From: a virus | Length of the DNA: 37,747 nt | Strand: one strand, 5' to 3' | IMG/VR virus record: IMGVR_UViG_3300024518_005611 | Coordinates: 1-37,747 of that record | Shown here: positions 3,386-30,100 of the stretch, in pieces | How positions within the stretch are numbered: the stretch's first letter is position 1 | Layout of the letters: each line of letters begins with the position of its first letter | Program-made: the position numbers and the translations under genes | The notes under the pieces: generated by a model | Told to the model about the DNA's origin: nothing | Database searches by the model: none | What the model saw: only the letters and a program-made list of their open reading frames with translations

Positions 3386-4243
3386 ATGACCAATGAACAA
3401 GACACTGTTGCTGAACTATCAGCTGGTGTTCCCACACAACCAGCACCAACAAACCCTCTACTTGCTAGAATTCAAATGCCAGGTGAGACCTTTAAACTAC
3501 CATCGGGTGGTTTATTCTATACTAACGGTGAATTAGCAGATCATGTAAAAGATGCTGAAGTACAAGTGCATCCAATGACAGTTTTGGATGAGATAATGAT
3601 CAAAACTCCTGATATGTTATTCAGTGGTAAGGCTGTTCAAGAAGTGTTTGGCCGATGCATTCAAGATGTCATCAAGCCTAATCAACTATTAGCAAAGGAT
3701 GTGGATTTCTTGTTGTTATGTCTTCGAAAGGTATCATATGGTGATACGCTTGAGATGGAAGATGTGCACTACAATTGTCCAGCTAAGAAAGAGAAGGAAG
3801 AAGAACCAGAAGCTCACACATACCCTATTGATATCAACACATTCATCAAGAATAGTAAGTTAATGGATCCAACCACAACCAAGCAATACTTTTTTGTAGA
3901 GTTACCAAATCAACAAAAAGTTAATATAACTCCGATTAGATTTGAAGATTTTGTTACTTTGATGCAAGTTCAAGACGACGATGTAAAAACTCCTGAGGAG
4001 CAGGTATTTGAATTAACAAAAACACTGGGTAACATCATAGTTAATGTTGACGAGACAACTGATAAGAAATTAATTGTAGAATGGTTGCGTAAACTTAAGC
4101 CCGAATATTTGAGAATACTACACGCTCGTTTGGAAGATACTGTTCAATGGGGACCAGATTTTAAATATACCTACAACTGTAAAGATTGTGGTCAGGCGCG
4201 AGAGGTCGTCGCTCCAATGAACCCTTTAGCTTTTTTTACATAA
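3386..4243 (+). CDS. 26: Baseplate hub assembly protein, gp26-like
   Basis: A 285-residue protein with the layout of the T4 gp26 baseplate family: an N-terminal LPSGGLFY element (about residues 38-45), a helical middle, a YNCP cysteine element near residue 130 followed by a charged KKEKEEEPE insert, and a C-terminal YNCKDCG zinc-binding-like pair followed by MNPLAFF. In T4, gp26 is needed to build the baseplate hub; in related myophages this gene sits in the tail assembly chaperone position. T4 gp26 is about 208 residues, so this one is longer. The stop codon lies immediately after a run of seven T residues, which appears to be a -1 frameshift site into the next frame. GGAGA precedes the ATG by about 10 nt. 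Family assignment is from motif pattern only. Confidence 0.8.
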   Translation: MTNEQDTVAELSAGVPTQPAPTNPLLARIQMPGETFKLPSGGLFYTNGELADHVKDAEVQVHPMTVLDEIMIKTPDMLFSGKAVQEVFGRCIQDVIKPNQLLAKDVDFLLLCLRKVSYGDTLEMEDVHYNCPAKKEKEEEPEAHTYPIDINTFIKNSKLMDPTTTKQYFFVELPNQQKVNITPIRFEDFVTLMQVQDDDVKTPEEQVFELTKTLGNIIVNVDETTDKKLIVEWLRKLKPEYLRILHARLEDTVQWGPDFKYTYNCKDCGQAREVVAPMNPLAFFT

Positions 4244-4476: not shown

Positions 4477-5139
4477 TTAGTGTCCTGCCATCTTCCAAGC
4501 TAAATGATATCTTTCCGATGAGGTATAAGATGCAGCTGGCGCTGAATCTGAATTCATATTATCTGTTGTAGCAGCACTACGAATACTTCCCGTATCTGCT
4601 TTATCATCATCGTGCCACCCATCAATGATACGTGCATATTCACCTGTCATGTTACTAAAAATTATAACATGTTGACCTATACCTAAAGATCCATCTTGAA
4701 TACCAATGTCACTACTATCAAATGGATGAGGTGGGCGGGTAAGATCGTTTCCAGTTCCAGCAATTAATCCTGCTGCCCGCAAGTGAGCAAAAAATTTGAG
4801 TGTTTCCTGTTCACCATTTGTAGGTGGTGTAGACTCGTCTAAATTCCAATCATCTCCATATCCAACATAACCATTACCGTCGCCGTTCATTTCGGGCATT
4901 CCAGTATACATAGTAAATGTAACATCAGCGGATGGATCATCTCCTGGGAATTCACGATAACGATCGTAATACAAGTCTCTTGCTGAAACCAATCCGCTTT
5001 GCACAACTTGCATTTTTTTCAATTTAGTATTGGTAACCATTTCTGAAGCTTTTAATACTCCACCCACAAGCAATGCAATGACAATTAATATCATTGCAAT
5101 TTCTACTAATGTGAATCCTTTTTGAGTATCATTTTTCAT
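4477..5139 (-). CDS. Type IV prepilin / pseudopilin-like protein
   Basis: The 220-residue protein starts at ATG 5139; a TTG start 18 nt earlier is less likely. It has a classic class III prepilin signal: leader MKNDTQKG, then FTLVE with the conserved Glu at mature position 5, then a hydrophobic helix (about residues 14-33). The globular part has a YYDRYREFPGDDP element, NGDGNGYVGYG, a LKFFAHLRAAGLI helix and an ERYHLAWKMAGH end, the pattern of bacterial pilin-like proteins. A prepilin peptidase would cut after Gly8. It lies 5 nt after the stop of a small membrane protein gene, with a host-type promoter upstream of both, and is oriented against the late gp26 block. The phage role is unknown; being swapped into or jamming a host pilus or type II secretion pseudopilus is an inference. 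Acquisition from a bacterial chromosome is likely. Confidence 0.88.
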   Translation of the reverse strand: MKNDTQKGFTLVEIAMILIVIALLVGGVLKASEMVTNTKLKKMQVVQSGLVSARDLYYDRYREFPGDDPSADVTFTMYTGMPEMNGDGNGYVGYGDDWNLDESTPPTNGEQETLKFFAHLRAAGLIAGTGNDLTRPPHPFDSSDIGIQDGSLGIGQHVIIFSNMTGEYARIIDGWHDDDKADTGSIRSAATTDNMNSDSAPAASYTSSERYHLAWKMAGH

Positions 5140-5144
5140 ATGTG

Positions 5145-5366
5145 TTAATCCATACAATCGTATCCTTGACCAATGTCGAGACCATTATACTTTTGTGGAG
5201 GACGTTCTACCTTCTTACATTGAGTATAATCAACAAACACTGCTTGTTTCGCAATAGAGTCAGATGAAATGATGACTATACTGATAGTGTGTTGATGAAA
5301 AAGAAAGATTGATCCTACTCCAATTACAAAGAATAAGATTATCCCGTTTAAAATATTGCTTACCAT
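5145..5366 (-). CDS. Small single-pass membrane protein, unknown function
   Basis: A 73-residue protein with one N-terminal hydrophobic helix (about residues 5-24, ILNGIILFFVIGVGSIFLF) and a polar C-terminal domain of about 45 residues containing two cysteines (TQCKK and YDCMD). GGAAAGG lies 2 nt before the ATG. The gene is the first of a two-gene unit with the prepilin, which starts 5 nt after its stop, under a sigma70-like promoter. The context suggests envelope function, possibly assisting or anchoring the prepilin, but nothing in the sequence identifies it. Confidence 0.7.
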   Translation of the reverse strand: MVSNILNGIILFFVIGVGSIFLFHQHTISIVIISSDSIAKQAVFVDYTQCKKVERPPQKYNGLDIGQGYDCMD

Positions 5367-7094: not shown

Positions 7095-7483
7095 CGCCAT
7101 ACTGGCGTTTTCCGATTAATTGGATATAAATCCCTATTCGTAGGCATCCAAAAAAATTAGCGGATAACAGTCACAGTTTTATTTCCCCCAGCGTTTACCT
7201 AGAAGGAAGGTGCCTTAACGATGAAGTATCGCATTTATACCTGTTTTACAAAACATAATTTTTTGAAGGAATGGTCTCACTTGCAAGGTTCACTGTTGAG
7301 GTTCGACTATTGGTTATTTTGTCGCCAACAAACACCGTTGTGATAGCACACCAATTCGGGCGAGGAAGGATGCCCACGGAACCAGACGCAATGCGTCTAT
7401 CTGATCACTACTCAGCTTCGGTATCCTGCTAATTTAATAGCCAGGAACACGGCCCGTTGGTGAGTCAGAAAGAATTCTCTTTC
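7075..7483. other. Hairpin-rich intergenic region without a convincing gene
   Basis: About 400 nt with no long frame on either strand. It holds three clean short stems: 7093-7109 (AACGCCA/TGGCGTT, 3-nt loop), 7384-7398 (AGACGCA/TGCGTCT) and 7467-7484 (AGAAAGA/TCTTTCT, 4-nt loop, touching the stop of the minus-strand gene at 7484). The base composition looks more GC-rich and less AT-skewed than the genes around it. No tRNA, tmRNA, RNase P or SRP RNA could be matched by eye. A minus-strand GTATAAATG resembles a late promoter near 7235. It may encode a structured RNA or be a remnant; I cannot decide. Confidence 0.5.
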
Positions 7484-7484
7484 T
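7467..7484 (-). terminator. Hairpin directly after the stop of the 7484-7852 gene
   Basis: AGAAAGA/TCTTTCT, 7-bp stem with ATTC loop, overlapping the TAA stop of the minus-strand gene. No U tract follows, so it may be a weak terminator or an RNA 3'-end stabiliser. Confidence 0.35.
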
Positions 7485-7852
7485 TATGCAACCGCTACTT
7501 CGAGCGGCATTGACTCTATATTATGTTTTATATTCTTTGCTTTCGCTTCGCGTCTTTGCTTTTCTACGTCTTTGATTAGTTTGTGGAGATTTGGAACAAC
7601 ATCTGTTCGTAATATCTCTAAACTGTTTCGCGTCTTAGGTATGATTATTTTCACTCCATCCCGCACAATCGTTTCTGTTGTTGTTACTGGAGTGTTCCAA
7701 TACTGTCTAAATTCTTCTGATTTTTTATCTAATTGTTTCAGTTCTTTTAATTCTAAATCATTGTCGGTTGCAAAATTTGACAACGTTATCCAATTTAAAA
7801 TAGAATAATTATCCAACGTATCAAATAGTTGATTGATACGTTGGGAGGGCAT
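7484..7852 (-). CDS. Hypothetical protein, late unit
   Basis: A 122-residue protein that I do not recognise. The N-terminal half is mixed (RINQLFDTLDNYSILNWITL), the middle has a short beta-like stretch (ETIVRDGVKIIIPKT), and the C-terminal third is a charged, probably coiled helix (KLIKDVEKQRREAKAKN). Its ATG lies directly after the stop of the FmdB-like gene (7853), so the two are probably translationally coupled and share the late promoter at 8085-8092. It does not carry the C-terminal tag shared by the genes just upstream. Confidence 0.65.
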   Translation of the reverse strand: MPSQRINQLFDTLDNYSILNWITLSNFATDNDLELKELKQLDKKSEEFRQYWNTPVTTTETIVRDGVKIIIPKTRNSLEILRTDVVPNLHKLIKDVEKQRREAKAKNIKHNIESMPLEVAVA

Positions 7853-8062
7853 TTATTTGCCCGGATCCGTTGATATGTTGAACATGGATGTTGGATTACT
7901 AACTCCCAGTCCACCTATGCGGAAGCTAGTGCCTGGCACAATAATGCGCTTTACCGTTCCCTTCTTGCACAGTTTACATTTCTTTAACGGCTCATCGTGC
8001 ACGCTTTGTGTTTCTTCAAAACGCTCCTCACATTTTTTACATTCATATGTAAATGTTGCCAT
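7853..8062 (-). CDS. FmdB-like zinc ribbon protein
   Basis: A 69-residue protein with the FmdB/CxxC-CxxC pattern: YECKKCEERFEETQS at the N-terminus, DEPLKKCKLC about 17 residues on, then a VKRII strand and a glycine-rich FRIGGLG end. The four cysteines should bind one zinc ion. Members are common in bacteria and phages and are called putative regulatory proteins, but their biochemical role is poorly known. GGAG precedes the ATG by about 9 nt, and a perfect late promoter lies 23 nt before it, so it is expected late rather than with the early operon in front of it. Confidence 0.85.
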   Translation of the reverse strand: MATFTYECKKCEERFEETQSVHDEPLKKCKLCKKGTVKRIIVPGTSFRIGGLGVSNPTSMFNISTDPGK

Positions 8063-8084: not shown

Positions 8085-8092
8085 TATTTATA
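8085..8092 (-). promoter_or_regulatory. T4-type late promoter for FmdB-like gene
   Basis: Perfect TATAAATA on the minus strand, 23 nt before the ATG at 8062. It overlaps the TAA stop codon of the upstream tagged gene, so a late unit is embedded at the end of the early operon. Confidence 0.8.
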
Positions 8093-8678
8093 CGATGAAC
8101 TTCATAGCACGGTCGTAGTTGTCTTCGTGACTATCGTCAACTGTTATTTTACATTCACCATCACTGAAAATAACTGAACGAAATACAACAGTTGGCTCTG
8201 GTAAATCAGCAAATGCTGCACTCGTGTACATTACTATCGCAGTACGTACCATCTCCTTTGCGTAATTTTCCTTCCTTTCAATTGGTAGGGTTGATTTAAC
8301 ATGCGCCCAAATTTTTTGGTATAACATCTCACTACCCAAACCATCAGTATCCATCTCACGGGCAAGTTGTAACATGTCATCTATAGTATACCACATTTCA
8401 GTAACCTGTCCCTTACTACCAATTTGATTAGTACCAATTCTACGAAGTCCAATATTTTCACCGTGTGGTGTAGGAAGACATGACGATTCTTCATACTGAA
8501 GGAATCCTTCGTTGGTTTTCTTCATACAAGCAGGAAGAGGTACTTCTTTTTCAGCCTCACAAGCTGCTAATGCCTCATCGCGTCTTTGTTGTTGTGATTT
8601 CAAATCAGCAATACATTCTTGTATTAATTGAGCACCGAGTTCTTCTTCATTAACCAAATTTTCGTATTCTTGCTCCAT
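8088..8678 (-). CDS. Hypothetical protein with shared C-terminal tag (196 aa)
   Basis: The N-terminal 45 residues are a charged helix rich in Glu/Gln, followed by a region with four cysteines (ACEAEKEVPLPAC, SSC) and a folded-looking domain (EMWYTIDDMLQLAREM, then EMVRTAIVMYTSAAFADL). No family is recognised. It ends SHEDNYDRAMKFIV, one of seven copies of a common C-terminal peptide in this operon. The start codon overlaps the stop of the preceding gene by one nucleotide (TAATG), implying coupled translation. It is the last gene of the early gp55 operon; its stop codon overlaps a late promoter. Confidence 0.8.
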   Translation of the reverse strand: MEQEYENLVNEEELGAQLIQECIADLKSQQQRRDEALAACEAEKEVPLPACMKKTNEGFLQYEESSCLPTPHGENIGLRRIGTNQIGSKGQVTEMWYTIDDMLQLAREMDTDGLGSEMLYQKIWAHVKSTLPIERKENYAKEMVRTAIVMYTSAAFADLPEPTVVFRSVIFSDGECKITVDDSHEDNYDRAMKFIV

Positions 8679-8989
8679 TATTTTATTATCTCCATTGCAT
8701 TATTGTATGAATCTTCGTCTTGTATTCTCTTTAAAAATTTCTTTGTGTCTTGTGCTAATTTTTTTGTTTCTTTGGGTGAGACTTGATCAGTCTCAATCGA
8801 CCCAAATAGTTCAAATATGTCTTCTATACTATCGTTGTCACTAGCTACGTAATCTATCGCTTGCTCTGTATTGTCAGGTGCAACATCTTTTCCAACATTC
8901 AATACAGCATCCGCTATATCGATTAAATTGTTTGCATTTTGAACAACAGCTTCACACTCTTCTATTGATTTAAATATTTCGTCATTCAT
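8678..8989 (-). CDS. Hypothetical acidic protein with shared C-terminal tag (103 aa)
   Basis: A very acidic, probably all-helical protein (EECEAVVQNANNLIDIADAV near the N-terminus, then VASDNDSIEDIFELFGSIE). The C-terminal part turns basic (KETKKLAQDTKKFLKRI) before the tag DEDSYNNAMEIIK. It overlaps the upstream gene by 4 nt (ATGA) and the downstream gene by 1 nt. Function unknown; such small acidic phage proteins are often regulators or inhibitors of host proteins, but nothing specific supports that here. Confidence 0.8.
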   Translation of the reverse strand: MNDEIFKSIEECEAVVQNANNLIDIADAVLNVGKDVAPDNTEQAIDYVASDNDSIEDIFELFGSIETDQVSPKETKKLAQDTKKFLKRIQDEDSYNNAMEIIK

Positions 8990-9210
8990 TTTATCACCGT
9001 CATCGCTCGGTTGTAATTCTCATTATATCCTTCGTCACCTTCCAACAAACGAAGTTCATTTGGATATAGTTCAATTACAACACCACTGATATTTCTTTTA
9101 ACTAATATGTAAGATCCGTCAACGTTAATAACCTCACCAATACGATCGTCATCAAATTCTTTGCCAGTCGGCGGCAATATTTCAACAAAATTGCCTTCTT
9201 TAATTATCAT
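8986..9210 (-). CDS. Hypothetical small beta protein with shared C-terminal tag (74 aa)
   Basis: The first 55 residues look like a small SH3/KOW-type barrel (GNFVEILPP, DRIGEVINVDGSYILVKR, then VVIELYPNELRLL), a fold often used to bind nucleic acid or protein. The tail is NENYNRAMTVIK, the shared tag. It starts 11 nt inside the end of the RuvC-like gene and ends in an ATGA overlap with the next gene. Fold is inferred from pattern only. Confidence 0.78.
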   Translation of the reverse strand: MIIKEGNFVEILPPTGKEFDDDRIGEVINVDGSYILVKRNISGVVIELYPNELRLLEGDEGYNENYNRAMTVIK

Positions 9211-9688
9211 TATTCATATCCTCTAATGTTCTTCCGAGCCAATAAGCATCGGTTAAATCTAACAAACCTGTACTCTTCTTCACCCCTAATTCGTCGAAAG
9301 TTTTACGGACATCATTTGGGAGATGTTCCAACAATGCTACCTTTTTAGCATTGCCCTTTCCTGTAGCAAATTTCTTAATTGTTCCAATTGGAACAACTCT
9401 CACATCATATCCACGACCATGTTTCAACTGTGTTATAATTGAGAATTGCAATCCTGCCAAATCTCTAGTGGCGTTTCCAAAGCTTGAAAATGATAGTGAT
9501 TCTAATGCAACAACATCAGGTTCGTGATCGCTATATATTTGACATAACTTCAGAATAACTTCCCAAGTCCGCAAATATATGTCTTTGCTCTTATCAGTCT
9601 TAAACGTTTCACAATGTAACATTTGACTGTCTTTCATAACGACTATTCCGGTACATGTAAAACTTTGATCTACGGCTAATATCTTCAT
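9200..9688 (-). CDS. ruvC: RuvC-like Holliday junction resolvase
   Basis: A 162-residue protein with the RuvC/RNase H-like pattern: AVDQSFTCTG with Asp7, VVALESLSF with Glu63, a GTIKKFATGKGNAKK element, and a C-terminal DLTDAYWLG with Asp144 and Asp147, together providing the metal-binding acidic residues. It should cut four-way DNA junctions formed during recombination or replication, clearing DNA for packaging. T4 uses the unrelated endonuclease VII (gp49) for this. It lies in the operon with gp46/gp47, surrounded by tagged small proteins, but has no tag itself (ends EDMNNDN). The start ATG follows a GGGA very closely. Confidence 0.87.
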   Translation of the reverse strand: MKILAVDQSFTCTGIVVMKDSQMLHCETFKTDKSKDIYLRTWEVILKLCQIYSDHEPDVVALESLSFSSFGNATRDLAGLQFSIITQLKHGRGYDVRVVPIGTIKKFATGKGNAKKVALLEHLPNDVRKTFDELGVKKSTGLLDLTDAYWLGRTLEDMNNDN

Positions 9689-9721
9689 TCCCTTATTTAG
9701 AGGGTAAAAGGAGGCGCTATA

Positions 9722-9916
9722 CTATAGTATTCCCATTGCATGATCGTATGCATCTTCGTCGCTGAATCCGTCTTTATCAAGAACCCAATCTTCACCGTCC
9801 CATACCACCGGCAAGAAATTCTTATCGGTGACGTCAATAATTTTTCCGTGGATTTGAATGATATAATTCTTATCTTGTGAATTCACCACACCATCTTTTA
9901 CGGTTATGTTGCTCAC
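9722..9916 (-). CDS. Hypothetical small protein with shared C-terminal tag (64 aa)
   Basis: A 64-residue protein: beta-like N-terminal part (NYIIQIHGKIIDVTD), a WDGEDWVLDKDG element, then the tag EDAYDHAMGIL. It overlaps the upstream tagged gene by 4 nt and is followed by a 33-nt gap before RuvC. No family recognised. The GxDW element resembles the strand-turn-Trp motif of its two upstream neighbours, suggesting the three arose by duplication (inference). Confidence 0.75.
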   Translation of the reverse strand: MSNITVKDGVVNSQDKNYIIQIHGKIIDVTDKNFLPVVWDGEDWVLDKDGFSDEDAYDHAMGIL

Positions 9917-10119
9917 AATATCCTCTTAACTCTGTCGTAGGCTTCAATAGGATCGAAAGTGTCCTTTTTCGGTGTCAACTCTGCTGGATCGGTTACTTTT
10001 AACCAACGTCCAACCCAAACATAAGTTTCATTGTGAGTGGTATCGTGCCATCTCTGTCCAACATAAGGTGATTGAGGTGCAATGTTTGTGTGAGTTACAT
10101 TCTTTATTTGGAGAGTCAT
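9913..10119 (-). CDS. Hypothetical small protein with tail-fibre-like motif and variant tag (68 aa)
   Basis: Residues about 15-42 read SPYVGQRWHDTTHNETYVWVGRWL, with the pattern P-x-x-G-x-x-W-x-D-T...V-x-x-G-x-W that is repeated in phage tail and baseplate proteins, including the giant protein of this window (for example near 27000-27090). The tail IEAYDRVKRIL is the most divergent copy of the shared tag (VK replaces AM). It overlaps both neighbours by 4 nt. A stand-alone single-motif protein of this kind is unusual; function unknown. Confidence 0.75.
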   Translation of the reverse strand: MTLQIKNVTHTNIAPQSPYVGQRWHDTTHNETYVWVGRWLKVTDPAELTPKKDTFDPIEAYDRVKRIL

Positions 10120-10340
10120 ATTACACCCATTGCATAATCATATGCTTCAATTGGATTATCTTTCATGACATCAAGCTGTTGTTGTATATGAGAAGAAAAT
10201 AGAAGCCATCTACAACCATCGTATACATATTGTGTTGTGTCATAACTTGGTGTGAATACTACTGTAAAGTAGTCACCAACAACAGCATTTGCAGGAAATG
10301 TAATGGTTGATTTGGAAGTTATTAATATGTTTGGTATCAT
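10116..10340 (-). CDS. Hypothetical small protein with shared C-terminal tag (74 aa)
   Basis: A beta-rich protein (ILITSKSTITFPANAVVGDYFTVVF... QYVYDGCRWLLF) related in layout to the 68-residue neighbour: a VGD element, a TTQYVYDG strand and a terminal tryptophan. A short helix leads to the tag NPIEAYDYAMGVI; the PIEAYD part is identical to the neighbour's, supporting recent duplication of the tail. ATGA overlaps on both sides indicate coupled translation. Function unknown. Confidence 0.77.
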   Translation of the reverse strand: MIPNILITSKSTITFPANAVVGDYFTVVFTPSYDTTQYVYDGCRWLLFSSHIQQQLDVMKDNPIEAYDYAMGVI

Positions 10341-10678
10341 ACCACACCCATTGCCCGATCATAATCTTCTGCTAACGTTGTTGGATTTTTGTAAGTTCCA
10401 TCTGGTCTTAAAAACAACACAAAACCATCAGCATCTCTGCCCGTTTCCCATATAACTTCTACTTCGATCCAAATGCGATCTTTATTTTTTTGATCAAGAC
10501 CAACCATAGCCTCTGCAGATATCATCGTTGTAGCACTCAAATGTAATTGTAAGACACGATTTACTGCATCATGCACAGCATCCCACGTCGCTAAGTCCAG
10601 ATGATCCCAAGACTTAAATTGTTCGGTTTCATCTATAATATCTTCTACAAGATCATTTCTTTGTTGAATTATGCTCAC
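10337..10678 (-). CDS. Hypothetical protein with shared C-terminal tag (113 aa)
   Basis: The N-terminal 60 residues look helical (QQRNDLVEDIIDETEQFKSW, then WDAVHDAVNRVLQLHL), and residues about 68-95 form strands (DRIWIEVEVIWETG, FVLFLRPDGTYKN). It ends LAEDYDRAMGVV, an almost consensus copy of the shared tag. Its start overlaps the gp46 stop by 4 nt, so it is the first tagged protein of the operon and translationally coupled to the nuclease subunit. No family recognised. Confidence 0.78.
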   Translation of the reverse strand: MSIIQQRNDLVEDIIDETEQFKSWDHLDLATWDAVHDAVNRVLQLHLSATTMISAEAMVGLDQKNKDRIWIEVEVIWETGRDADGFVLFLRPDGTYKNPTTLAEDYDRAMGVV

Positions 10679-12447
10679 GCTGCTTCCTCGTTGATATAAC
10701 TAAATCCCTTCGATAATTGAACAACTATTCGTTGATCAAATACACTTTCAAAATCTGCTATATGTGAGATGATATATAGTGATATTTTTTCATCTCGTGA
10801 TTTTATTTTTAACATTCTGGCTGCCGCTTGTTGACCAACAGCATCCAACCCAACATCCAAGAATTCATCCAACATGCATACATTAATTCGACCGTGAATA
10901 TTTTCCAATACGTCTTTAAATGCAAACGCCAAAGCAAGATTAACTCGAGCTCGCTGACCGTTAGATAGGTTACCAAAATCCATTGTTCTTCCGAATTGAG
11001 AAATCTGAGCTGTCATTTCGTGTGTAAATTCCACATTATGAGGCAATCCCAGGTCTTTCAAGTAATGAGTAAGCCTTGAATTCAAGAATGGTATGTTCTT
11101 ATTTAACAATGCTTTACGAACAAAGCTATCTTTTTTGGTTAGCAGCTTCCAAAGGAACTTCTGATGAGTAGATAACTCCGTTAATTCATTGATGGTTTCT
11201 AGGTTAATTGGATCAAGTTCAAGGTCCTGTAATTCTTCTAAAGGTTCGATAAATGGATTTGTAGCTGTCTTTAAATTATCCATTTCTTTTTCTAATGAAG
11301 CTGTCTTACCATTTATATCAATCAATTCTTCAATATCTGATACTACAATTTCTTGATCAAGCTCAGCTTGTTGCAACAATAACCCGTCGATAGCTTTATC
11401 TAGATCATCAAGCTCAGATTTTAACGACTTGAGACTCTTCTTCGCAGCCTTAATCACAATCTTACAATCAGCAATCTTCTGCTTAGCGTCTTTCAACTCT
11501 CGTAAACAATATGGACACTTTTCATCCACCAAATGAGCTAATTCCTGTTCAACATTTGATTGTTCGGTGTTTAATTCACGCATCTCACGTTCAATCTTTC
11601 CAGCTCGGGTATCTGCAACGTCTAGATCCTTCGTTACACCTTCTTGCATATTGATTAATTCTTTCTGACTCTCAATATCAACATTCTCAGCTCTTTTTAA
11701 CTTGGCTTTAATGGTTTTAATCTCTTGTCGATTTGATTTAACCCAATTGACAACACGCATTTCAGCAGATGTAATTTGCTTAGCGTGCCGTTCGTGTTCC
11801 TTTTCAAGTTGTTCAATTCGAGTCTTGTTAAACTTTATCGAAGCATCTGTTGCATTAATTTCCTTCTTCAAAATTACTGCATTTACTGACAAAGTCTTTA
11901 AGTTAAATAATTCTTCAATGATATCAGTCTGGTTAGGTTCGGTTGGGTGTCTTACCTTTAAGTCTAAGAACGGAACATGGTTAGCTGAAATCGCAACAAT
12001 TCGAATGAATAGGTCATAAGGAATCCCTATGATTTCTTCAATCAAATCATTCGTATGTGCCATGCTATCGGGAGTAATATCTTTACCATTTTCGGTCAAT
12101 TTAACCCAATTACCAGCAGCACCGACTTTCTCTTTACGAACTCTCTGAATGTGATAATGCTTACCGTTGGTATCAAAATCAAGTGTTACTTCCATGTTCT
12201 TTTTGTTAATGTTGTTGACAAGATTATCCTTAGAGATATCAGAAAGAGCCTTATCATATAAAGCATAAACGAGTGCATTAACAATTACAGTCTTGCCAAC
12301 ACCGTTGCCACCAACACCAGACGACACGTTGTCAAGATCTTCTCCAGTTATTAAAGTGGTTCCGCCTCTATCAAGATTGATTAAAGTAGTCTTCGCCCCA
12401 TAAGAAAGGAAGTTTCTCATTGTTAAAGTATTGAATGTTATATCCAT
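10675..12447 (-). CDS. 46: Recombination endonuclease subunit gp46 (SbcC/Rad50-like ATPase)
   Basis: A 590-residue SMC-type ATPase. Walker A GGNGVGKT is at residues about 47-54, long coiled coils flank a CPYC zinc hook at 311-314, the ABC signature LSNGQRARVNLALAFAF is near 500 and Walker B VCMLDEF near 530. With gp47 it forms the Mre11/Rad50-type complex that resects double-strand ends for recombination-dependent replication and helps degrade host DNA in T4. It overlaps the gp47 stop by one nucleotide (TGATG). Length is close to T4 gp46 (560 residues). Order 55-47-46 is as in T4. Confidence 0.95.
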   Translation of the reverse strand: MDITFNTLTMRNFLSYGAKTTLINLDRGGTTLITGEDLDNVSSGVGGNGVGKTVIVNALVYALYDKALSDISKDNLVNNINKKNMEVTLDFDTNGKHYHIQRVRKEKVGAAGNWVKLTENGKDITPDSMAHTNDLIEEIIGIPYDLFIRIVAISANHVPFLDLKVRHPTEPNQTDIIEELFNLKTLSVNAVILKKEINATDASIKFNKTRIEQLEKEHERHAKQITSAEMRVVNWVKSNRQEIKTIKAKLKRAENVDIESQKELINMQEGVTKDLDVADTRAGKIEREMRELNTEQSNVEQELAHLVDEKCPYCLRELKDAKQKIADCKIVIKAAKKSLKSLKSELDDLDKAIDGLLLQQAELDQEIVVSDIEELIDINGKTASLEKEMDNLKTATNPFIEPLEELQDLELDPINLETINELTELSTHQKFLWKLLTKKDSFVRKALLNKNIPFLNSRLTHYLKDLGLPHNVEFTHEMTAQISQFGRTMDFGNLSNGQRARVNLALAFAFKDVLENIHGRINVCMLDEFLDVGLDAVGQQAAARMLKIKSRDEKISLYIISHIADFESVFDQRIVVQLSKGFSYINEEAA

Positions 12448-13529
12448 CAGTTTTTATCCGGTGCAAGTTCAGAAGACTTTAATTTTGTGTATATGTTAAC
12501 CAACATATCATTATCAATGTGAGGAGTATCAATATCACCAAGCATACGAAGTACCAGTTCGTCAGTACTCACCCACTCTGTTTCTTCCCAATCCATTTCA
12601 GTTTCAGTTTCGGACATTGCTGCTTGAATTTCAGCAGATTCTTCCATTGTAAATTCACGCAGGTCATATTTTTCAGTATACTTTTCTCGTACTAGAGTAC
12701 TTTCTTCATATGAAATCGGAACATCGACAACACATTTGATTCTGGAGTTAGGATGTATTTTTACATCTCCGTTCAAAAGAGATGTCAAGTCAATTGAGAT
12801 ATATTTTGGACAATCGAGCCAATCTGTGAACTCATACTTTTGTGCAACGTGATCATACGTCATCATACCACGCTCAGTGTCACCAGCATCACCAAAATCC
12901 ATAGGAAAACAGTTTCCCATATAAATGATATTCTTTGCAATTTGGCGTTTGTGAAAGTGACCCGAAATAATATGTCTTGGTCCTTTGAAATCTTTTGGGT
13001 TTGGACCTGTCGGCATTCTTATACCATAACCAGTAACCAAAAATCCTTTGAATTCAAAGTGACCAGCCCAAAAAGGAATATTTAAATACTCCACCATATC
13101 AGCATATTCGTCGTGGAATAGGAATGGAGAGAACAAAGCCTTCCTTTCTATTTCCTCAACAATTCGAGGTTGATCTATGATAATAAAATTATCAAATTCA
13201 GCGAATGGAACAATCGAATGTATTTCTCTAGTGTGACGATGATATAAATCGTGATTACCAATAACAAAATATACTGGCACATTCAATTCATTTAATAGTT
13301 TAGCACCTTGATAAGAATAGTTGAGCGTGGCGATGTTGAGAGAACTTCGGTTCTCATTCCAATCGCCCAAGAAACCTACATAATCGATTTCAGGATCAGC
13401 TGCTACCTTTTCACAGAACCATTTGATAAAATTAATACAATCCTCATTATGAGATTTTGAATTAGATTTCTTTCCAAAATGAATGTCAGTAAAAAATGCG
13501 CCCTTTTTCAGAGTCTTATTTTTAGTCAT
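12447..13529 (-). CDS. 47: Recombination endonuclease subunit gp47 (SbcD/Mre11-like)
   Basis: A 360-residue metallophosphoesterase with the Mre11 motifs in order: FTDIHFG (Asp15, His17), GDWNEN (Asp56), GNHDLYHR (Asn92, His93) and SGHFHKRQ near residue 195, which bind the two manganese ions. It is the nuclease partner of gp46. The C-terminal 100 residues are acidic and presumably hold the Rad50-binding region. T4 gp47 is about 339 residues. An AGAG ribosome binding site precedes the ATG, and a 6-bp hairpin (13538-13554) lies between it and the gp55 stop. Confidence 0.95.
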   Translation of the reverse strand: MTKNKTLKKGAFFTDIHFGKKSNSKSHNEDCINFIKWFCEKVAADPEIDYVGFLGDWNENRSSLNIATLNYSYQGAKLLNELNVPVYFVIGNHDLYHRHTREIHSIVPFAEFDNFIIIDQPRIVEEIERKALFSPFLFHDEYADMVEYLNIPFWAGHFEFKGFLVTGYGIRMPTGPNPKDFKGPRHIISGHFHKRQIAKNIIYMGNCFPMDFGDAGDTERGMMTYDHVAQKYEFTDWLDCPKYISIDLTSLLNGDVKIHPNSRIKCVVDVPISYEESTLVREKYTEKYDLREFTMEESAEIQAAMSETETEMDWEETEWVSTDELVLRMLGDIDTPHIDNDMLVNIYTKLKSSELAPDKN

Positions 13530-13560: not shown

Positions 13561-14328
13561 TTATATTGTTTCACCAGAATCTCTTGCTTCTCGTTCCATC
13601 TGATCTGCATCAGCGTCGTCGCTTGTTCCAGATCGTCTGTCAACAGCTTTATGCATTGCTGTATACGCCTTGTGAGCTTCTTGATAACTATACGATGGAT
13701 CTAATCCTTGATCAACAAGTTTAGAATCTCGGATATCTCTTTGACGCTTTTCTTGATTCAAAAATTGGATGAAAGAGTTTTTAATGCACTGCGTAAAGAA
13801 TGCGAACGGATTTTGACTCTTCTCAGGGTTAAATGAATTCCACGTACGAACCAACATCATCATAGCGTATGCTTGCATATCTTCATTGTAGGTGTAGTTT
13901 GCAAAATTACCCTTGCGACCATATCGAAGAGCTAGAGTTTGCAACATATGAGCAAGGCGATCAGTCATTTGTGGAGGATCGTTTGCTTTACTCAACATTA
14001 CTTGAATCATCAAATCTTTGTTATTGAGATAATTAACCTTTTTCGGCTTCTTCGGTTTTGGGGGTGCTTTGGTTCTAGCCTTCTTCATCTTAACTTTTGT
14101 GTTTTCTGCCTTCTCAACAGGTACACGAACGTGTGGACGTCTTTTAGCTAAATGGATATTTTTATATGGTCCTGGCGTAACTTTTTCAGCTAACACACGT
14201 CCAGTGGCTCTTTCAAACTTCACATATTGATTAGTTTCTTTGTTAAACCATTGGACAATATCAGGACGTTGAGATGTGCTCTTTTTGGGCGTTGGTATCA
14301 CCGCCTCGTTGTTATTATTATTCGACAC
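13561..14328 (-). CDS. 55: Late transcription sigma factor, gp55-like
   Basis: A 255-residue protein starting with GTG 14328 behind AAAGGAG, 6 nt away. Residues about 95-205 match T4 gp55: VNYLNNKDLM, the GNFANYTYNEDMQAYA segment and FNPEKSQNPFAFFTQCIKNSF followed by KKR-type basic residues, the conserved sigma region 2 that reads the late -10 element. T4 gp55 is 185 residues; this one has an extra basic, proline-rich N-terminal 95 residues (KKARTKAPPKPKKPKK). It should recruit host RNA polymerase to TATAAATA promoters, which abound here. A T4-like C-terminal clamp-binding SLDFL motif is not evident; the end is acidic instead (DDADADQMERE). It heads an early operon with gp47 and gp46. Confidence 0.92.
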   Translation of the reverse strand: MSNNNNNEAVIPTPKKSTSQRPDIVQWFNKETNQYVKFERATGRVLAEKVTPGPYKNIHLAKRRPHVRVPVEKAENTKVKMKKARTKAPPKPKKPKKVNYLNNKDLMIQVMLSKANDPPQMTDRLAHMLQTLALRYGRKGNFANYTYNEDMQAYAMMMLVRTWNSFNPEKSQNPFAFFTQCIKNSFIQFLNQEKRQRDIRDSKLVDQGLDPSYSYQEAHKAYTAMHKAVDRRSGTSDDADADQMEREARDSGETI

Positions 14329-14353: not shown

Positions 14354-14381
14354 ATTATACTGAAAATCCACTAAAGGTCAA
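14354..14381 (-). promoter_or_regulatory. Sigma70-type (early) promoter of the gp55 operon
   Basis: On the minus strand TTGACC (14376-14381), 16-nt spacer, TATAAT (14354-14359), followed by TACC as in the 5395-5422 promoter. It lies 26 nt before the GTG start of gp55. Its -35 is only 3 bp from the divergent late promoter. Confidence 0.78.
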
Positions 14382-17524: not shown

Positions 17525-19167
17525 GTGAATTTGGCGTAATAGATGAAATATTAGAAGTAACGGGCGCAGATGAGTCGTTTACTAATATCACTATAGGTGA
17601 GGTTGTTGATACCAACGATCCGCAACAGATGGGACGTGTTCGTGCCGTTTGCCCTGCTATGGGAGACACTCGACAACAAGCTCTCAAGCATATTCCTTGG
17701 GCAATGTACGGTTCTCCGTTTGGTGGTGTTAATGAAGTAACAGCTCGAGGAAGAGGTAACGACAAATCTGAAGGTCCTGTCTCATATGGTATGTGGGCAA
17801 TTCCAAAAATTGGTTCACAAGTTTTGATCATGTGTATTGATGGAAATCCTGCTCATCGAGTGTGGCTTGGTTGTTTGCCAGGACAGTTCTTTCCTCATAC
17901 AATGCCTCATGGTAGATACTCTGCAAAACCTTCAGCTGGTAATCCTGAAGGTCCATTAACTTCAACTGAAAATCCTATCGAACCTCTTCACGGAAATCTA
18001 TCAGAAGCATTTTCGGGTGGATCAGCTGCTGCGCGTGAAAGTTTTGAATTTAGATCGCGGGGAGCAGATAATCAAGTTGCTCATCTCACCCCCGAAGAGA
18101 TCGCGGCGCGTGTAAAATTTTCAAAATTAGCTGACGATCGTGACGAAATAATTTCAGAAGCGGACGGAGAGTCTTTAAACCATTCACAAGGATATTCTAG
18201 AAGTAATATCGCTCCAAACAAAACCTTTTCCAATACTGGTGGAGTAAACTACGACTCCCACATATATGCTTGGACGACTCCAGGCTTTCATGCTCTTCAT
18301 ATGGACGATCGTGCTGAGAGTTGTCGTATGCGTTTTAGAACGACTGCTGGTCATCAAATTATTCTTGACGATACGAACGAGAGAGTTTACATCAGCACTG
18401 CTCAAGGTAAGACGTGGATCGAAATTGACGAAAAAGGAACGATTGACATCTACGGCGAACAAGATATATCAATACGATCAGATCAAGATGTAAACATATC
18501 AGCTGGTAAGTCGATCCGAATGAAAGCCAATGATGGTATTCATATGATAGCTGGGGATGAAATTAGACTACACGCGAAAGCAGAAGGAAACGATTTAAAT
18601 GGTGATCTCGGGTTACATTTCAAGAGTGAGGAAGACATCCACATTGAATCGGTTGGTACATTCGATCTTTTAACTGGTGGACTTACTCGTATACAAATTG
18701 GTTCCACGCTCGAACTTACATCGGGGAACACAGAGATTCAAACAGGAACGTTAGATATTACTAGTGGCAACACTAATATATCAACAAGTACGTTGAGTGT
18801 TGCAAGCAGCGCCTTTCAACTTGACACAGCGTCAGCAATTATAAATTCATCAACATTTGATGTAGATGGTGGTACCGCCATCACAATGACAGCAGGTGTT
18901 ATTGATTTGAATGGCCCACCAGCAGCATCAACTAGTATTTCATCACCTCCAGCGCCTGCTAACGCAGTAATAGCCCTTGAGTCTTTTGAGATTTCCCGTG
19001 AACCAGCTCACGAACCGTGGGCTCGTGTGTATACTACAATAGCTGGAGCAGATAACGACTTGGGTAATAGCCCAACACTAGAATTCTCTTACACGGATGC
19101 TGGTGTAGATCGATCCACAGCTCGACCAGATAGACCAAAAGATCGCAACTTAAGGTGGCACCGATAA
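17521..19167 (+). CDS. 5: Baseplate central spike protein, gp5-like without lysozyme domain
   Basis: A 548-residue protein. An OB-fold-type N-terminal domain (VVDTNDPQQMGRVRAVCP through YGMWAIPKIGSQVLI and NPAHRVWLGC, about residues 25-125) is the part of gp5 that binds the hub. Residues about 250-450 form the repeating beta-helix stretch typical of spikes (GHQIILDDTNERVYIST, DISIRSDQDVNISAGKSI, GIHMIAGDEIRLHA). The tail is a Thr/Ser-rich repeat followed by a short C-terminal domain. There is no T4-type lysozyme insert (no matching segment between OB fold and helix). It overlaps the hub gene by 4 nt and the PAAR gene by 1 nt. Confidence 0.85.
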   Translation: MSEFGVIDEILEVTGADESFTNITIGEVVDTNDPQQMGRVRAVCPAMGDTRQQALKHIPWAMYGSPFGGVNEVTARGRGNDKSEGPVSYGMWAIPKIGSQVLIMCIDGNPAHRVWLGCLPGQFFPHTMPHGRYSAKPSAGNPEGPLTSTENPIEPLHGNLSEAFSGGSAAARESFEFRSRGADNQVAHLTPEEIAARVKFSKLADDRDEIISEADGESLNHSQGYSRSNIAPNKTFSNTGGVNYDSHIYAWTTPGFHALHMDDRAESCRMRFRTTAGHQIILDDTNERVYISTAQGKTWIEIDEKGTIDIYGEQDISIRSDQDVNISAGKSIRMKANDGIHMIAGDEIRLHAKAEGNDLNGDLGLHFKSEEDIHIESVGTFDLLTGGLTRIQIGSTLELTSGNTEIQTGTLDITSGNTNISTSTLSVASSAFQLDTASAIINSSTFDVDGGTAITMTAGVIDLNGPPAASTSISSPPAPANAVIALESFEISREPAHEPWARVYTTIAGADNDLGNSPTLEFSYTDAGVDRSTARPDRPKDRNLRWHR

Positions 19168-19466
19168 TGCCATCTGCATGTAGATTAGGTGATCCGATTA
19201 AATGCGGTGACACGATGGCTGAAGGCAGTCCAAATGTCTTTGTGAATGGACTTCCGTGGACGAGAGTTGGTCCAGACAAAACAGCTGGACACGTTGTCGG
19301 CTCAAAATTCTTTCCGCCTATAGCTATAACAGCAGGAAGCGCCGACGTGTTTATAAACGGCTTCCCAGCAGCACGTGTAGATGATCCCACTGAACTGCAC
19401 CCAACAACCGGAACTCACAGCAGCACCGTTGATGTTGGTTCTCCAGATGTGAATGCAAACTTATGA
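19167..19466 (+). CDS. PAAR-repeat spike tip protein
   Basis: A 99-residue protein from ATG 19167, which overlaps the spike stop (TAATG) and follows AAGGTGG by 8 nt; a GTG at 19155 is less likely. It has the PAAR pattern: N-terminal ACRLGDPIKCGDTM, SPNVFVNGLPWTRVGD-like strand (here RVGP), HVVG, then a second SADVFINGFPAARV repeat and a SPDVNANL end. PAAR proteins cap the spike trimer with a metal-bound sharp cone. Equivalent to T4 gp5.4. Confidence 0.9.
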   Translation: MPSACRLGDPIKCGDTMAEGSPNVFVNGLPWTRVGPDKTAGHVVGSKFFPPIAITAGSADVFINGFPAARVDDPTELHPTTGTHSSTVDVGSPDVNANL

Positions 19467-24190: not shown

Positions 24191-27100
24191 GTGGCAAACG
24201 ATAATTCAGATTACAATCTGCCGAGAACAAAGTTGCATGAACTGCTCGCACACCCGTTTGATTCAAATGTAAACAAGTCGGTCTTCGAGAACCTGTTCAA
24301 TCGATTCCTTACCAAACCAGAAACTCGTAAATTGGCTGGTTACATTGGTCAAGGAAATGAAGATGCACTCATCTCTCGCCAAATTGTTGAACCAACCATA
24401 GACCGTCAAGCGGCTCAACTTCAGCCAATTCTATTTAATAAAATTGGTTCGGTTGAACACATGGCTTCTTGGAAGGATATACTGAATGAATTAGTACGTC
24501 TGGGTGTTGACATCGATCGTCTACCAGAATGGGGCGAAGCACAGGTATTCAATTGGGTTCCACCAATTGATATTGATAAATTAATACACTACCAAGATTA
24601 TTATTGGGTTGATCCAAATAATCCAGCAGGTCAGCCACAATATCTTACTATTCGAAGCCGTTGTGCAACTGCAACATCTCAAGCTAATTTTCATCAACGT
24701 CTAGTAGACGAGTTTGGTGAAGATTTTCCAATATCCGGAACAGAAGCGGTTGATGGAGTACTTCCAACATTTGCTATTCTGTCAATTAGTACTGGTGCTG
24801 AGTCCATACTCGTTGCAGGTGATGCCACAGCTGACCTAACTTTCGAACAATTCTTTAACGTCACAGGAACATTATTTAACAACGGCGAATATCAAATTCT
24901 GTCCGTACCAGTTTTTGATGGTACTAATACAACGTTTGATGTTGGACCAGGCATATTGGTAGCGGATGAATTGACAATCGGCACCGTAAACGTACAACGA
25001 TTTGATACGTTAATTATTCCAGGCGAATTTATCAGATTATTAGAACCAGGCTTTGTATTCTTCTTCAAAAACACTACCAATGTAGACTTAGAAGATAGCT
25101 TCCTAACAGTTGTTTCAGCGAGTTATGATCAGACTGCAGATGTCACAACTATCGAAATCGACGTAACATTCACATCTAGTTCTACTGATGGTGACATCTC
25201 TCTAGTTGAACAGTTGAACATTTTCCTTGCTGAACAATCTTGTCAATGTGAAGGTTCTGTTGGTTGGGATATTTTTTCATGGGATGACAATCCAACAGAT
25301 CCACTGTGGGATGGTGATCTCGTTCCACTTCTCGCGAGCATTTCAAATCTAGTCGATCCAGTAGCACCTGGTGCTGAAGGTGAATTGTGGTTTAATACTG
25401 ATACAGATCAATTGTTCATATATGGTGCAGATGCTTTTGGTCCTGGCGTGCCAGGTTGGAAAGTAATATACAACAAGTTTTCAACTGTTGTTAGCGCTAC
25501 AGAAGGATTGGGTTTGTGGGATTTCACCCCCGATTGTGGTGTGCAATCTATCATTGATGCTGCGGACCAGTGGATCGATCAAAACAAATGGGTTCATAAA
25601 ACTGATGTTACGAACTTTTCTGTTGCCAAGCAAGCATCCCTACCAATCATCGAATATGATTGGGACTTGGAATTAAACGAATGGACATTTGCAAATCCAG
25701 TTTGGAAATATCGATTCGAAAGATTCATTCCATTTGCAGCCACTACGGCGCAGCCACAATTAATTGAACTCACGCCACTATTTGATTGGGTGCAAGGTGG
25801 ACTTGGTTTTGAAGCAAATATTATACTTGATGATCAGTATGGTGATTTAACTGAATCATTTACTCCAGGCTCGTTCTTCCAAACCCTCGATACTTCTGAT
25901 TTGTTGGAAGTTGTTAGTTCCAAATTTGAACAACCTGCTGCTGGGCAACCATTTCAAACAATAATTACACTCACCGTTGATGTTCCAGTAGGTATGATAG
26001 GAGCAGGCGCTCTTCGTCCTGACGGTGTAGCGGGGTTGAGACCTTTCAGAACTTCTCTGGGTGATCCTTGGAAAGCATATCACGATCATTGGTTGTTTGT
26101 TGAAACAGAATCAACAATCGCTATTAATCACCAACCAGTGAATCCATTTATTGCAGCACCCATAAGCTCACCAGTTGTTGACATTGAGTTTGAAACGCTG
26201 GGAGCAGGCACAGATGGAGAATATCAAACAACAGCATTTTCTCAAACATTCAATGTGCTAACTCCAACGCCTTTAACAAAATTTAAATTAGCTCCAACGC
26301 TTACAACCAACGCACTGGTGGGGTTTGACGACATCCGAGTGTATGTTAATGATATTCGAGTATTTGGAACATATCAAGAACTCACTCCCGATGGACCAGT
26401 AGCCGAAGTTGATTTGATAACAACTATTAGTGAAGATGTTTTTTATGTACAACAGATTGAATTTCTTGTTGGATTTGAAACAAAACAATTTGATGTAATT
26501 CGAATTGAAGTTGGTGAAGGTGCAATAGATGAAATCGGATTGGCTTCTGTCCCTGTTAGAACAATCGAAGATAATGATGCATTTAATAATCTTTCAACTG
26601 GTGGCACTCGCACTGTTAGTTTGATACAATTACGAAAAGCTGAGCAAGTTAAAACATTAAACAATCAATATCCATTATTTGACATATATGATACTACTGG
26701 TGCATCAGCCTTGAAAGCAAATTCAATTTTTGCCTTCGCAACATCGCCTGATGCTAACATTAATGTAGCAGTTGGTCTTCGTATTGTGGTTGATGATGCT
26801 GGTACGGATTTTAGTTTTGAACAATTCCTTTGTGATCCAGATACAAACGTTTTGCGTGCTTACCGTGATTACTCTAATGAGCCAGGAACATATTGGGCAG
26901 ATTCGGAAGCTCGGGAAGTTAAGTTTTGGGACGGATTAACATGGTCTGATAAAGGACTACAAGGATTACAATATGAACAGGCAGTTGTTGATGTATTTGA
27001 ACCAACATCTCCGTTCACTGGACAAGTGTGGTTTGATACTATATCAAATGAATTAAAAGTATATGATGGAGCAAATTTTGTTGTTGCATTAGCGTCAGAT

Positions 27101-30100
27101 GTGAACTATTTAAACTATGACATCACTCTACAAACGATTTGGAAGAAGGGACTTAACGATGAAACCTATGTTCCAGTAGTGGTTGATTGGAAGAATCGCA
27201 CAGTAGAAGAATATGACGCTGAGCAAGTACTGTTTGTATCTGAATCAGCTGAAGAATTGATTCTGGCGGATCCTACGTTAACTCTAGCAGAAGCAACAGC
27301 TCAAGCAACAACAACTTGGTATGCAAGTCAGGCCAATGATTTATCACCAACAGGATTTTGGAGTGGTGATTGGGAAATTCCAGATCCGTTATACTTCAAC
27401 AATCAACATGAAAATAGAAAAATATTGATGACGTCTGAATTGGTGTCTCACTTTAATTCTATCATTTCAGCACAACCAACAATCCCAGGATTTATTGGTC
27501 CTGATAGCGCTCGTTTCCATCTTATTGCAACAGAGAATGTCAACTATGGTGTGGGCGGTTTGATTAAAGAATTCAACAACGGATTTGATACATTCTTGTC
27601 TTCAATATTTGTAAACAACGTCACTCCACCAACGTTGTTTGAATTTGCTCACGATCAATATGAAACACTATTGAATGTGTTGAAGGAAGATTTTCGAAAT
27701 GATGCTAACGATTTAATGACAAACATAACTGTTGAGTCTCTGACAGATTTCTCAACATTTGCCACTAACACTATACTTGATGCGTTTGAACAAAACGATA
27801 ATGCAGCGTTCTTATATGGAGATAGCACAACATTTACCGATGTGACTGGGGCCGATGATCTGGGCGTTCGCAATTGGATTGCAACACTTCCATACCTCAA
27901 TTTGGTTAATCGTGTTGCTCCAGAAAAGATAGTTGATGATTTGCATGATATTAATAACATTACTCATCACGATGGACACAGCCAAGGATACGCATACACC
28001 GATGCAACGCTTGCCGGAATAGCTCGTATTGTTATTAACACACCAGATTCGCGTTCAACGTTAGCAGCACCAGATAATACATTTGGTAAGATAGATTCAG
28101 GATCGCCGCCAGATGATATTGTTGAGTTTGCAACAGCACCTTTCTTTGGTGAAACAATTTTAGGTCGTGAAGGTGTATATTGGTATCAGGTAGTGGGTGT
28201 TACTCGAAGACTTTACAGATTAGCAATAGCAGCTGTTGGTACAAGTGAACCATCATCTTCTTTGGCAGATGGAACTTTATGGATGGATATGGCACCACTC
28301 GGTGAAGTGCTTCGTGTTAAAAATGGTGTAACATGGGATGTTGTAAGTGGTTTAGCGATTGGTGATGGACGTCTACATAACGGAACCAACCCAGCAGATA
28401 TTACTACATCTTCCATTTCAGCGTGGCAGGAACTTGATCTTGATGAAATTCTTGTTAATATAATTCTCGAACTGGAAGAACGGTTGTATGAAAATGCACC
28501 TACACCAGTGGTACTTGATTATGATTTTGATGCACTACAAGACACAGCGGCCAAAGTTGCACTATATAATCAACTCCTTGAAAATGCTTTTCTTGCGTTT
28601 ACAAGATCGAGCGAAATTACTGCTCCTCTGGTTAATGGTGATTATGTTCCAACTGATCCTTTCACTTGGAATTATAAGCGATCAGTTCCAGGCGCGAATT
28701 TCCAAATTATTGATACTGACACAGTCGCAAATACCTTCACAATTGATGATACGTTTGCTGTATCCTTCCCAGCAGCATCAACATTCTTTGTTAAAAATTC
28801 TGGTGTAAATGATGGCGAATTTACAGTTGTATCTTCGGTTGAAGTTGCAGGTCCACAAACGGTTATCACCGTAGTTGAAACTGTACAAGACTCGTTGCTT
28901 GGTGTGATATACAAAGGAACATTACCATCACCAGATAATACAGGTTCTGAATCTGGTGGTGATTGGAGAGATTACTACAAGAAATTATACGGAACACCAT
29001 ATCCTCACCTCGAGCCTTGGATATTGCAAGGATACACAGATAAACCAACGTGGTGGGAAGCTGAGTACACAAACGATGACATAAGCATTTGGGGCAACCG
29101 CCGTTGGAAATATCTACACCAAACAGTAATTGAAGGACAATCTCAATTTCTTTACACGGGGTTTGGAGATAACGGAACATTTGTTGCCGGTGATGGAGCA
29201 GGTGGAACAGCATACGCACCAGGTGACACTATTACATTAAGTGACGGTTCTATCGTTACAGTAAATATCATTGATGGTGATGGAGATGTTGTCTTCTTTG
29301 ATGTAACAACTTCAAGTGGAATAATCGTAGTACCAGGCACCACATTAACACAAGTGTCAACTTCAGGTACTGGATTAGCGTTCACATTAACTCCAGAATT
29401 GTCTAATATTATCGGTGTAGGAATGTGGCAAAATATTCGAGCTGGTATAATTCCAGCTGGTCAATTGCTTCCAGACGGTGCAACAACATCAACTGGAGTA
29501 TTCATTCCAGGCTCAGTACCGTTATACAATTATTTTTCTGTTAACATCGCTGATGTAACAGTCACATCAAACGGTGGAGCCACAACATTTGATCCAGATG
29601 ACGTTTTTCCTCCTTTCTTTGATTATCTTGCAGCGGGTGAACCAGCGATTACACTTAATCGTTCTGTGTTCCGCGAATTTGCTATTGAGATTATATCACC
29701 AGCAGCAGATTACGCATTTGCAGATGCTGGACCTGTCGAGTTTGAGTGGCGCGAGTCATCACACTTTCTATACGATCAATTAACAATTGCATTCCAGATG
29801 GATCCAGTTAATCTTGTGAGCGATACCTTTGGATTTGATTACAATGTAATTGACCGATTGGAGATTGATAGCCAAACAGAACAAACACCTTGTCATTGTC
29901 GAACAGACTTTCATGGTGAAGTAGTTGATGATGAACTGTATCAAGTTGATGGAACAAATCAATGGTACGTAAATTTCAATCGTTACTTAGGATTCGACTC
30001 AAGCCTTTCAGATTTCCGTAGCTTGTGGACGTTGTGGACAGCACCAATGATGTATCAATTCTCATCATTTGTTGATACTTCATCTTTACAAGTTGCACAC

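Follow-up and report, generated by a model that had tools for sequence, protein, structure and literature searches.

A common C-terminal peptide on unrelated small proteins of large T4-like phages, possibly a docking tag

The DNA analysed here is a viral contig of 37,747 nucleotides (IMG/VR record IMGVR_UViG_3300024518_005611, called the window in its whole length), a fragment of a large T4-like phage in which seven small proteins with unrelated bodies end in the same short peptide, the YDxAM tail. The tail is conserved at the protein level, lies at the C-terminus and is spread over unrelated bodies, several of which originate from virion proteins; a second, unrelated tag is present in another group of phages. 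The reading that we favour, at a probability of about 45%, is that the tail is a lineage-specific docking (address) peptide, which would recruit a fast-changing set of baits or effectors to a single shared receptor. The initial annotation of the window had already noticed the seven tails; its observation holds and is larger than stated, and the virion-protein bodies and the second tag group were not part of it.

The tail in the window

The tagged open reading frames (ORFs) belong to a minus-strand operon in the order gp55, gp47, gp46 and then the seven small tagged ORFs, W1 to W7, with a RuvC-like resolvase among them. W1 (10337..10678, 113 aa, tag codons 10340-10363) ends in YDRAMGVV, W2 (10116..10340, 74 aa, tag codons 10119-10142) in YDYAMGVI, W3 (9913..10119, 68 aa, tag codons 9916-9939) in the variant YDRVKRIL and W4 (9722..9916, 64 aa, tag codons 9725-9748) in YDHAMGIL. 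One residue follows the tag in the other three: W5 (8986..9210, 74 aa, tag codons 8992-9015) ends in YNRAMTVI and a K, W6 (8678..8989, 103 aa, tag codons 8684-8707) in YNNAMEII and a K, and W7 (8088..8678, 196 aa, tag codons 8094-8117) in YDRAMKFI and a V. The sequences and places of the tails are thus as first quoted. The resolvase inside the cluster (9200..9688, minus strand; phrog_159, E 1.2e-25), the gp46-like recombination nuclease subunit (10675..12447, minus strand), the gp47-like nuclease (12447..13529, minus strand; an ORF call that adjoins gp46 as in annotated relatives) and the gp55-like late sigma factor (13561..14328, minus strand; phrog_234, E 2.3e-29), which is the first gene of the operon, all lack the tail, again in agreement with the initial annotation.

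The bodies to which the tails are joined do differ, as had been claimed. Once the last 12 residues are removed, no two of them resemble each other (best E values 0.04 in phmmer and 0.095 in blastp), and they are not the full-length homologues by which the initial annotation would have recognised simple duplication. The body of W2 is of a YVYDGxxW type, a class assigned by eye, and family searches with it gave no significant match; W3 has a fibre-repeat-like body (VGQRWHDTxxNETYVWVGRW), and a tagged homologue of W4 is found at L003:7635-7832. The codons of the tails vary (TAT/TAC, GAT/GAC/AAC, GCA/GCG/GCT and several arginine codons), with synonymous variation at every tag position whose codon is variable, implying that the peptide is kept rather than the DNA. 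From residue composition, the chance of a relaxed form of the tail is ~9e-6 per ORF and that of seven in eight ORFs ~4e-35, and the relaxed tail is found in 0 of 1,788 control ORFs (XacN1, Paride, contig G008 and phiKT1024); a chance origin is therefore rejected.

Distribution of the tail and a second tag in another phage group

The gp46-like gene served as the anchor for finding relatives. Among the neighbourhoods of 41 gp46 relatives fetched from viral contigs, over a dozen have tagged ORFs immediately after gp46. The tag-bearing sample consists of ~15 related contigs (2,131 ORFs, 390,353 residues), mostly metagenomic. A strict motif, [YF][DNE]xAMx[ILVMF][ILVMF], occurs 50 times in these residues, with 48 of the occurrences 0–7 residues from the C-terminus, and 0 times in 342,669 residues of untagged phages. 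Of 72 regular-expression matches across the contigs, a handful of which are probable chance or natural look-alikes, 37 are exactly terminal and the remainder are followed by 1–7 residues, so that the initial description of the tail as lying at or one residue from the C-terminus is right for the window and too narrow for other contigs. The consensus of the 72 is Y/F, D (or E/N), R (or D/Y), A, M, any residue, I/V and L/V/I, and the residues preceding the tail are acid-rich (28% acidic vs 17% overall).

The suggestion that the tag offers a route to further members was borne out in the related genomes. Whole contigs scanned with the motif in DNA form also had matches at a great distance from gp46, the reversed control pattern giving one match in 16 contigs. 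Contig G001 (363 kb) has 11 strict motifs distributed round the genome, every one 0–2 residues from the C-terminus. The loci of tagged genes include the gp46–RuvC and gp44–gp62 intervals, the neighbourhood of terminase and other sites. A 324-residue ORF of contig G017 has one internal and one terminal motif and looks like a fusion of two tagged ORFs. The clearest amplified array is that of contig G021 (L160:619-2583), with eight consecutive tandem tagged ORFs of 77-85 residues, whose bodies have a small beta-barrel look (SH3-like by eye only).

As far as searched, the YDxAM tail is not found in XacN1, Paride, Munch, Atu_ph07, KVP40 or T4, the two pattern matches in RAS14 are both internal, and the gp46-linked tagged families have no match among 50,697 phage records. 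The tails of GH19 endolysins (L154, L155) are natural look-alikes and were left out of the counts; that of a VRR-NUC-like protein (L090) is probably another. A profile search from the F1 alignment was unproductive, its conserved stretches being too few. An unbiased test of C-terminal residue triples was not decisive for G001 alone (log10 p -7.9); XacN1 reached -9.3, several of its hits being duplicated genes.

The same test is decisive (log10 p -40.7) in the cultured Vibrio phage phiKT1024 (OM249648.1; loci L211-L220, e.g. L209:1764-6084), which has a different and unrelated tag, PExx[IVL]-COOH. Here 78 of 341 ORFs have this ending; they share one strand and are mostly 64-144 residues long, and a tagged paralogue is detectable for 15 only. 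The two groups are connected by a Cys-rich body, which bears tails of the FxxAM type in G001 and G021. Its phiKT1024 homologue has the tail PExFI and is located in an array of small ORFs sharing the C-terminus [YFH]PExx[IV]; the same body thus carries different tails in different phage groups. Arrays ending in PExx[IVL] are present in further viral contigs, and no tail of this type is found in KVP40 and T4. Where phiKT1024 genes overlap, the PE codons of the tag, CCG/CCA GAG, form a Shine-Dalgarno sequence in 28 of 35 cases, and many of the tags end in ATGA overlaps. In the 20 tags where the next gene is >30 nt away, PExx[IVL] is kept with the codons mostly CCA GAA. The retention of the peptide with changed codons where no close gene follows shows that selection acts on the peptide, with a second, translational layer added to it.

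Virion-protein pieces among the tagged bodies

The body of W1 is predicted to have the handshake fold of gp25 and the sheath C-terminal domain. Its AlphaFold2 model (pLDDT 78.5) has the order H-H-E-E-E, with the tail outside the folded body and at a pLDDT below 50. In VIA-align the best matches are a gp25-like baseplate protein (Z 11.2), the sheath protein Lin1278 (10.3), T4 gp25 (10.1) and the gp25-like anti-adaptor IraD (8.9), with unrelated rows at Z ~7.5 and below; Foldseek gives a sheath match at E 0.05 only. The link to gp25 is not visible by profile comparison (best for sister families, 14%) and is clear only by structure. The fold is common to the W1 body, to IraD and other gp25-like proteins and to sheath C-terminal domains. 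T4 gp25 and sheath are parts of the virion, whereas IraD is an anti-adaptor of RssB, and a tail of the W1 type is not known on any of them.

Other tagged bodies are recognisable in their sequences. Tagged paralogues of gp23 adjoin terminase in G001 and G009, with Pfam scores above the curated cut-offs. The sheath C-terminal domain (PF17482) scores 35.0 bits in L170:3400-3744 and 38.2 bits in L060:8795-10102 against a cut-off of 26.9; the tagged sheath C-domain of G017 is above the Pfam cut-off. L060:8795-10102 (G001 223295-224602) is a tagged mosaic of 435 residues between gp44 and gp62, with sheath C-domain and portal pieces by Pfam and a weaker gp23 piece; L114 has a different tagged ORF in the same slot. 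A terminase ATPase domain is tagged in L074/G017 (L074:2226-2897, 36.6 bits, cut-off 25.6). In its alignment the Walker A sequence RQTGKS has become RQVGVS (K to V) and LDE has become LDN (catalytic E to N), and judged from these residues, which do not conform to the active site, the protein is a catalytically dead terminase ATPase. Below the Pfam cut-off or by local similarity, there are a sheath piece in L008, portal-like segments in L007, L027 and L031 and fibre-repeat bodies in L003 and W3. The W3 family profile matches a structural protein of G001 (312003-314432) with an hhalign probability of 87%, and its relative L003:7064-7315 matches the window protein 24191-35749 at E 1e-5 to 1e-3. 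The portal-like A2 family reaches phmmer E values down to 6e-7 and 96% in hhalign over 24 columns.

In total, 9 of 67 tagged ORFs and 14 of 1,370 untagged ORFs of these contigs have partial virion-protein matches (odds 15x, Fisher p 3e-7), a detection that is biased to conserved segments. Diverged partial copies of the major capsid, tail tube and sheath proteins without a tag are located outside the virion clusters of G001 (24225-25121, 3457-3840 and 236003-236649), G021 (28637-29275, 46280-47164, 52116-52391 and 69867-70460) and G023 (7446-7760). Virion-protein mimicry in these phages is thus wider than the tag. The other tagged bodies are of unrelated kinds, including tandem small ORFs of ~80 residues, the Cys-rich family, a P-loop protein and a VWA-like protein; searches for anti-defence families gave no convincing match. 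The VWA-like protein (L169:12929-13858) and its homologues are neighbours of the adenylosuccinate synthase encoded by Rhizobium phages, by G001 and by Va1 (a relative of phiKT1024), and are tagged in G023 only.

Expression, possible receptor and rival readings

The operon from gp55 through gp47 and gp46 to the tagged ORFs is headed by a strong sigma-70-type promoter, TTGACC-16-TATAAT (14354..14381, minus strand), which has 11 of 12 consensus positions and is tied best of its region. A T4-type late promoter motif, TATAAATA (8085..8092, minus strand), overlaps the stop of W7 and precedes an untagged FmdB-like zinc-ribbon ORF (7853-8062). In phiKT1024 none of the 52 tagged ORFs is preceded by a TATAAATA late promoter, against 31 of the 266 others (p 0.003); the test is weak for genes deep within operons. 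The sigma-70 promoter ahead of gp55 and the late promoters without tagged genes point to early expression of the tagged genes, with late expression unlikely. Searches of the window for Rfam families and tRNAs gave no matches. Elsewhere in the window, ORF 4477-5157 has a type IV prepilin-like N-terminus (GFTLVEIAMILIVIALLVGG) within the phage contig and is without a PHROGs match, and a PAAR-motif protein (19155-19466; phrog_281) adjoins the baseplate genes.

A constant peptide on unrelated, fast-changing bodies, with other constant peptides in other phages, is best fitted by one receptor per lineage. The single receptor suggested by the initial annotation is still the natural reading of a peptide that is selected, that sits on unrelated bodies and that has led to more members, and, like the early timing and the bait function, it is something that we infer. 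The tail is probably a short amphipathic helix that would act as the docking peptide of one phage lineage, joined to a changing set of early proteins of mostly ~100 residues. All of these would be brought to the single shared receptor, with the body as the variable part giving specificity. Bodies made of virion domains would bind the partners of the original virion proteins, which may be assembly partners of the phage itself or of a rival phage, or host sensors. In the preferred mechanism, the body would capture a partner and the tail would deliver or tether that partner to a common protein-handling hub such as a Clp unfoldase, a chaperonin or a phage hub not yet known. The mimic bodies may be immune decoys, dominant-negative assembly caps or adaptors for removal or delivery. 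Host sensors of virion proteins have been described: terminase and portal are recognised by Avs1-4 (PMC12931631), the capsid protein by CapRel (PMC9712102) and the tail tube by DSR2, of which DSAD1 is a competitive inhibitor occupying the sensor site for that protein (PMC11087589). The likeness to DSAD1 is that a phage protein would fill a sensor site intended for a virion protein; the difference is that DSAD1, as far as described, has no common tag, while the mimics here derive from virion proteins themselves and their decoy role is putative. A wider and more doubtful proposition is modular delivery in large phages, in which new baits, including virion-domain decoys against host sensors of capsid, portal, terminase and tail, would be fused to a lineage-specific C-terminal peptide read by a dedicated receptor.

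Several observations weigh against the docking reading. A phyletic search for a receptor exclusive to phages with the tag yielded no clear candidate. Both tagged and untagged phages encode ClpP, and GroEL, absent from the untagged relatives searched, is not found in the other, incomplete tagged contigs either, so that neither distribution marks the tag; GroEL is a weak lead for the receptor. Most tagged bodies have no recognisable function and some virion-protein copies in these genomes are untagged. The fold search with the portal-like A2 model (pLDDT 68) did not recover portal, the sequence match spanning ~26 residues, and the late-promoter test in G001 was not informative (p 0.52). Phage GroEL genes were seen only in G001 (121097-122722), OM249648.1 (51752-53257) and MK387337.2 (147453-148958), the last being phage Va1, whose tails were not scored.

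Among the rival readings, a degradation signal, by which the tail would deliver early proteins to a protease of the host or of the phage for timed removal, is unlikely. It is in keeping with small early proteins, hydrophobic C-terminal residues and the ClpP encoded by these phages, and the tail resembles the ssrA tag and ClpXP C-degrons in being a short C-terminal peptide, one that would be recognised independently of the body. Degrons of the ssrA type, however, require an exact free C-terminal end, whereas around half of the matched YDxAM tails have trailing residues; the tail also differs in consensus and is encoded in the genes of native proteins. This tolerance of residues behind it is better fitted by a docking helix than by a free-end C-degron, and of the controlled degradation first proposed, the classical ssrA-like form fits poorly. 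ClpP is, moreover, equally present in untagged relatives, and gp23 paralogues and the VWA protein are tagged too. Interference with assembly is likewise an unlikely account. The virion-domain mimics would cap head and tail assembly in a dominant-negative manner or set its timing, whether in the phage itself or in a rival infecting the same cell, with the tail marking them for removal or placement, and the bodies are indeed assembly domains (sheath/gp25 handshake, portal segment, terminase ATPase and gp23). Their identity to the phage's own proteins is, however, ~40% or less, and no virion domain can be recognised in the majority of tagged proteins, the eight tandem ORFs of G021 and the Cys-rich family among them.

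That the tail is the C-terminal analogue of the capsid targeting sequence of T4, loading hypervariable proteins into the head for injection, is improbable. In T4 a constant N-terminal peptide of ~10 residues is joined to the hypervariable internal proteins IPI, IPII and IPIII (PMC9026906), and both systems thus place a constant terminal peptide on small, variable proteins of T4-type phages, some of those in T4 being anti-defence proteins. The T4 signal is N-terminal and is removed by the gp21 protease from proteins packaged in the head. The tail here is C-terminal, its bodies include virion domains and it has no consistent cleavage motif, an [LI]xE cleavage-type site lying within 8 residues upstream in 8 of 67 cases vs 4.1 by shuffling. 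No comparable N-terminal motif was found in G001 or phiKT1024. The tagged genes lack late promoters and look early, which also argues against the packaging as internal head proteins considered initially. Docking to a replication, recombination or transcription partner would account for tagged genes among gp46, RuvC, gp44 and gp62, and is likewise improbable; such genes are found next to terminase and at many further loci as well, and the core replication proteins seen are untagged, so that the special tie to replication and recombination first raised is not maintained. It is very improbable that the last codons merely encode a ribosome-binding site and the overlapping start of the next gene, a reading drawn from the phiKT1024 overlaps, because the peptide outlasts the change of codons there and the tagged G001 gp23 paralogue has only a convergent gene downstream; as the sole cause it is rejected, the Shine-Dalgarno embedded in the phiKT1024 tags being real and remaining as the second layer. 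Simple duplication of one gene family, for which local paralogy such as the G021 array could be cited, is rejected by the dissimilar window bodies and by tagged bodies of unrelated folds.

No paper on a shared C-terminal phage tag was found in the incompletely covered literature, and the initial annotation's statement that no such system has been described stands within this limit. Small early genes of large phages are mostly without function or detectable relatives. If the tail is a docking peptide, it would mark dozens of these genes as clients of one receptor, and a single pull-down could place as much as a fifth of the proteome of a phage in one common pathway. With the tagged copies of virion domains, a connection to bacterial immune systems that sense capsid, portal, terminase and tail proteins becomes concrete and testable, and the tail consensus may serve to identify such proteins in genomes where searches by sequence similarity fail.

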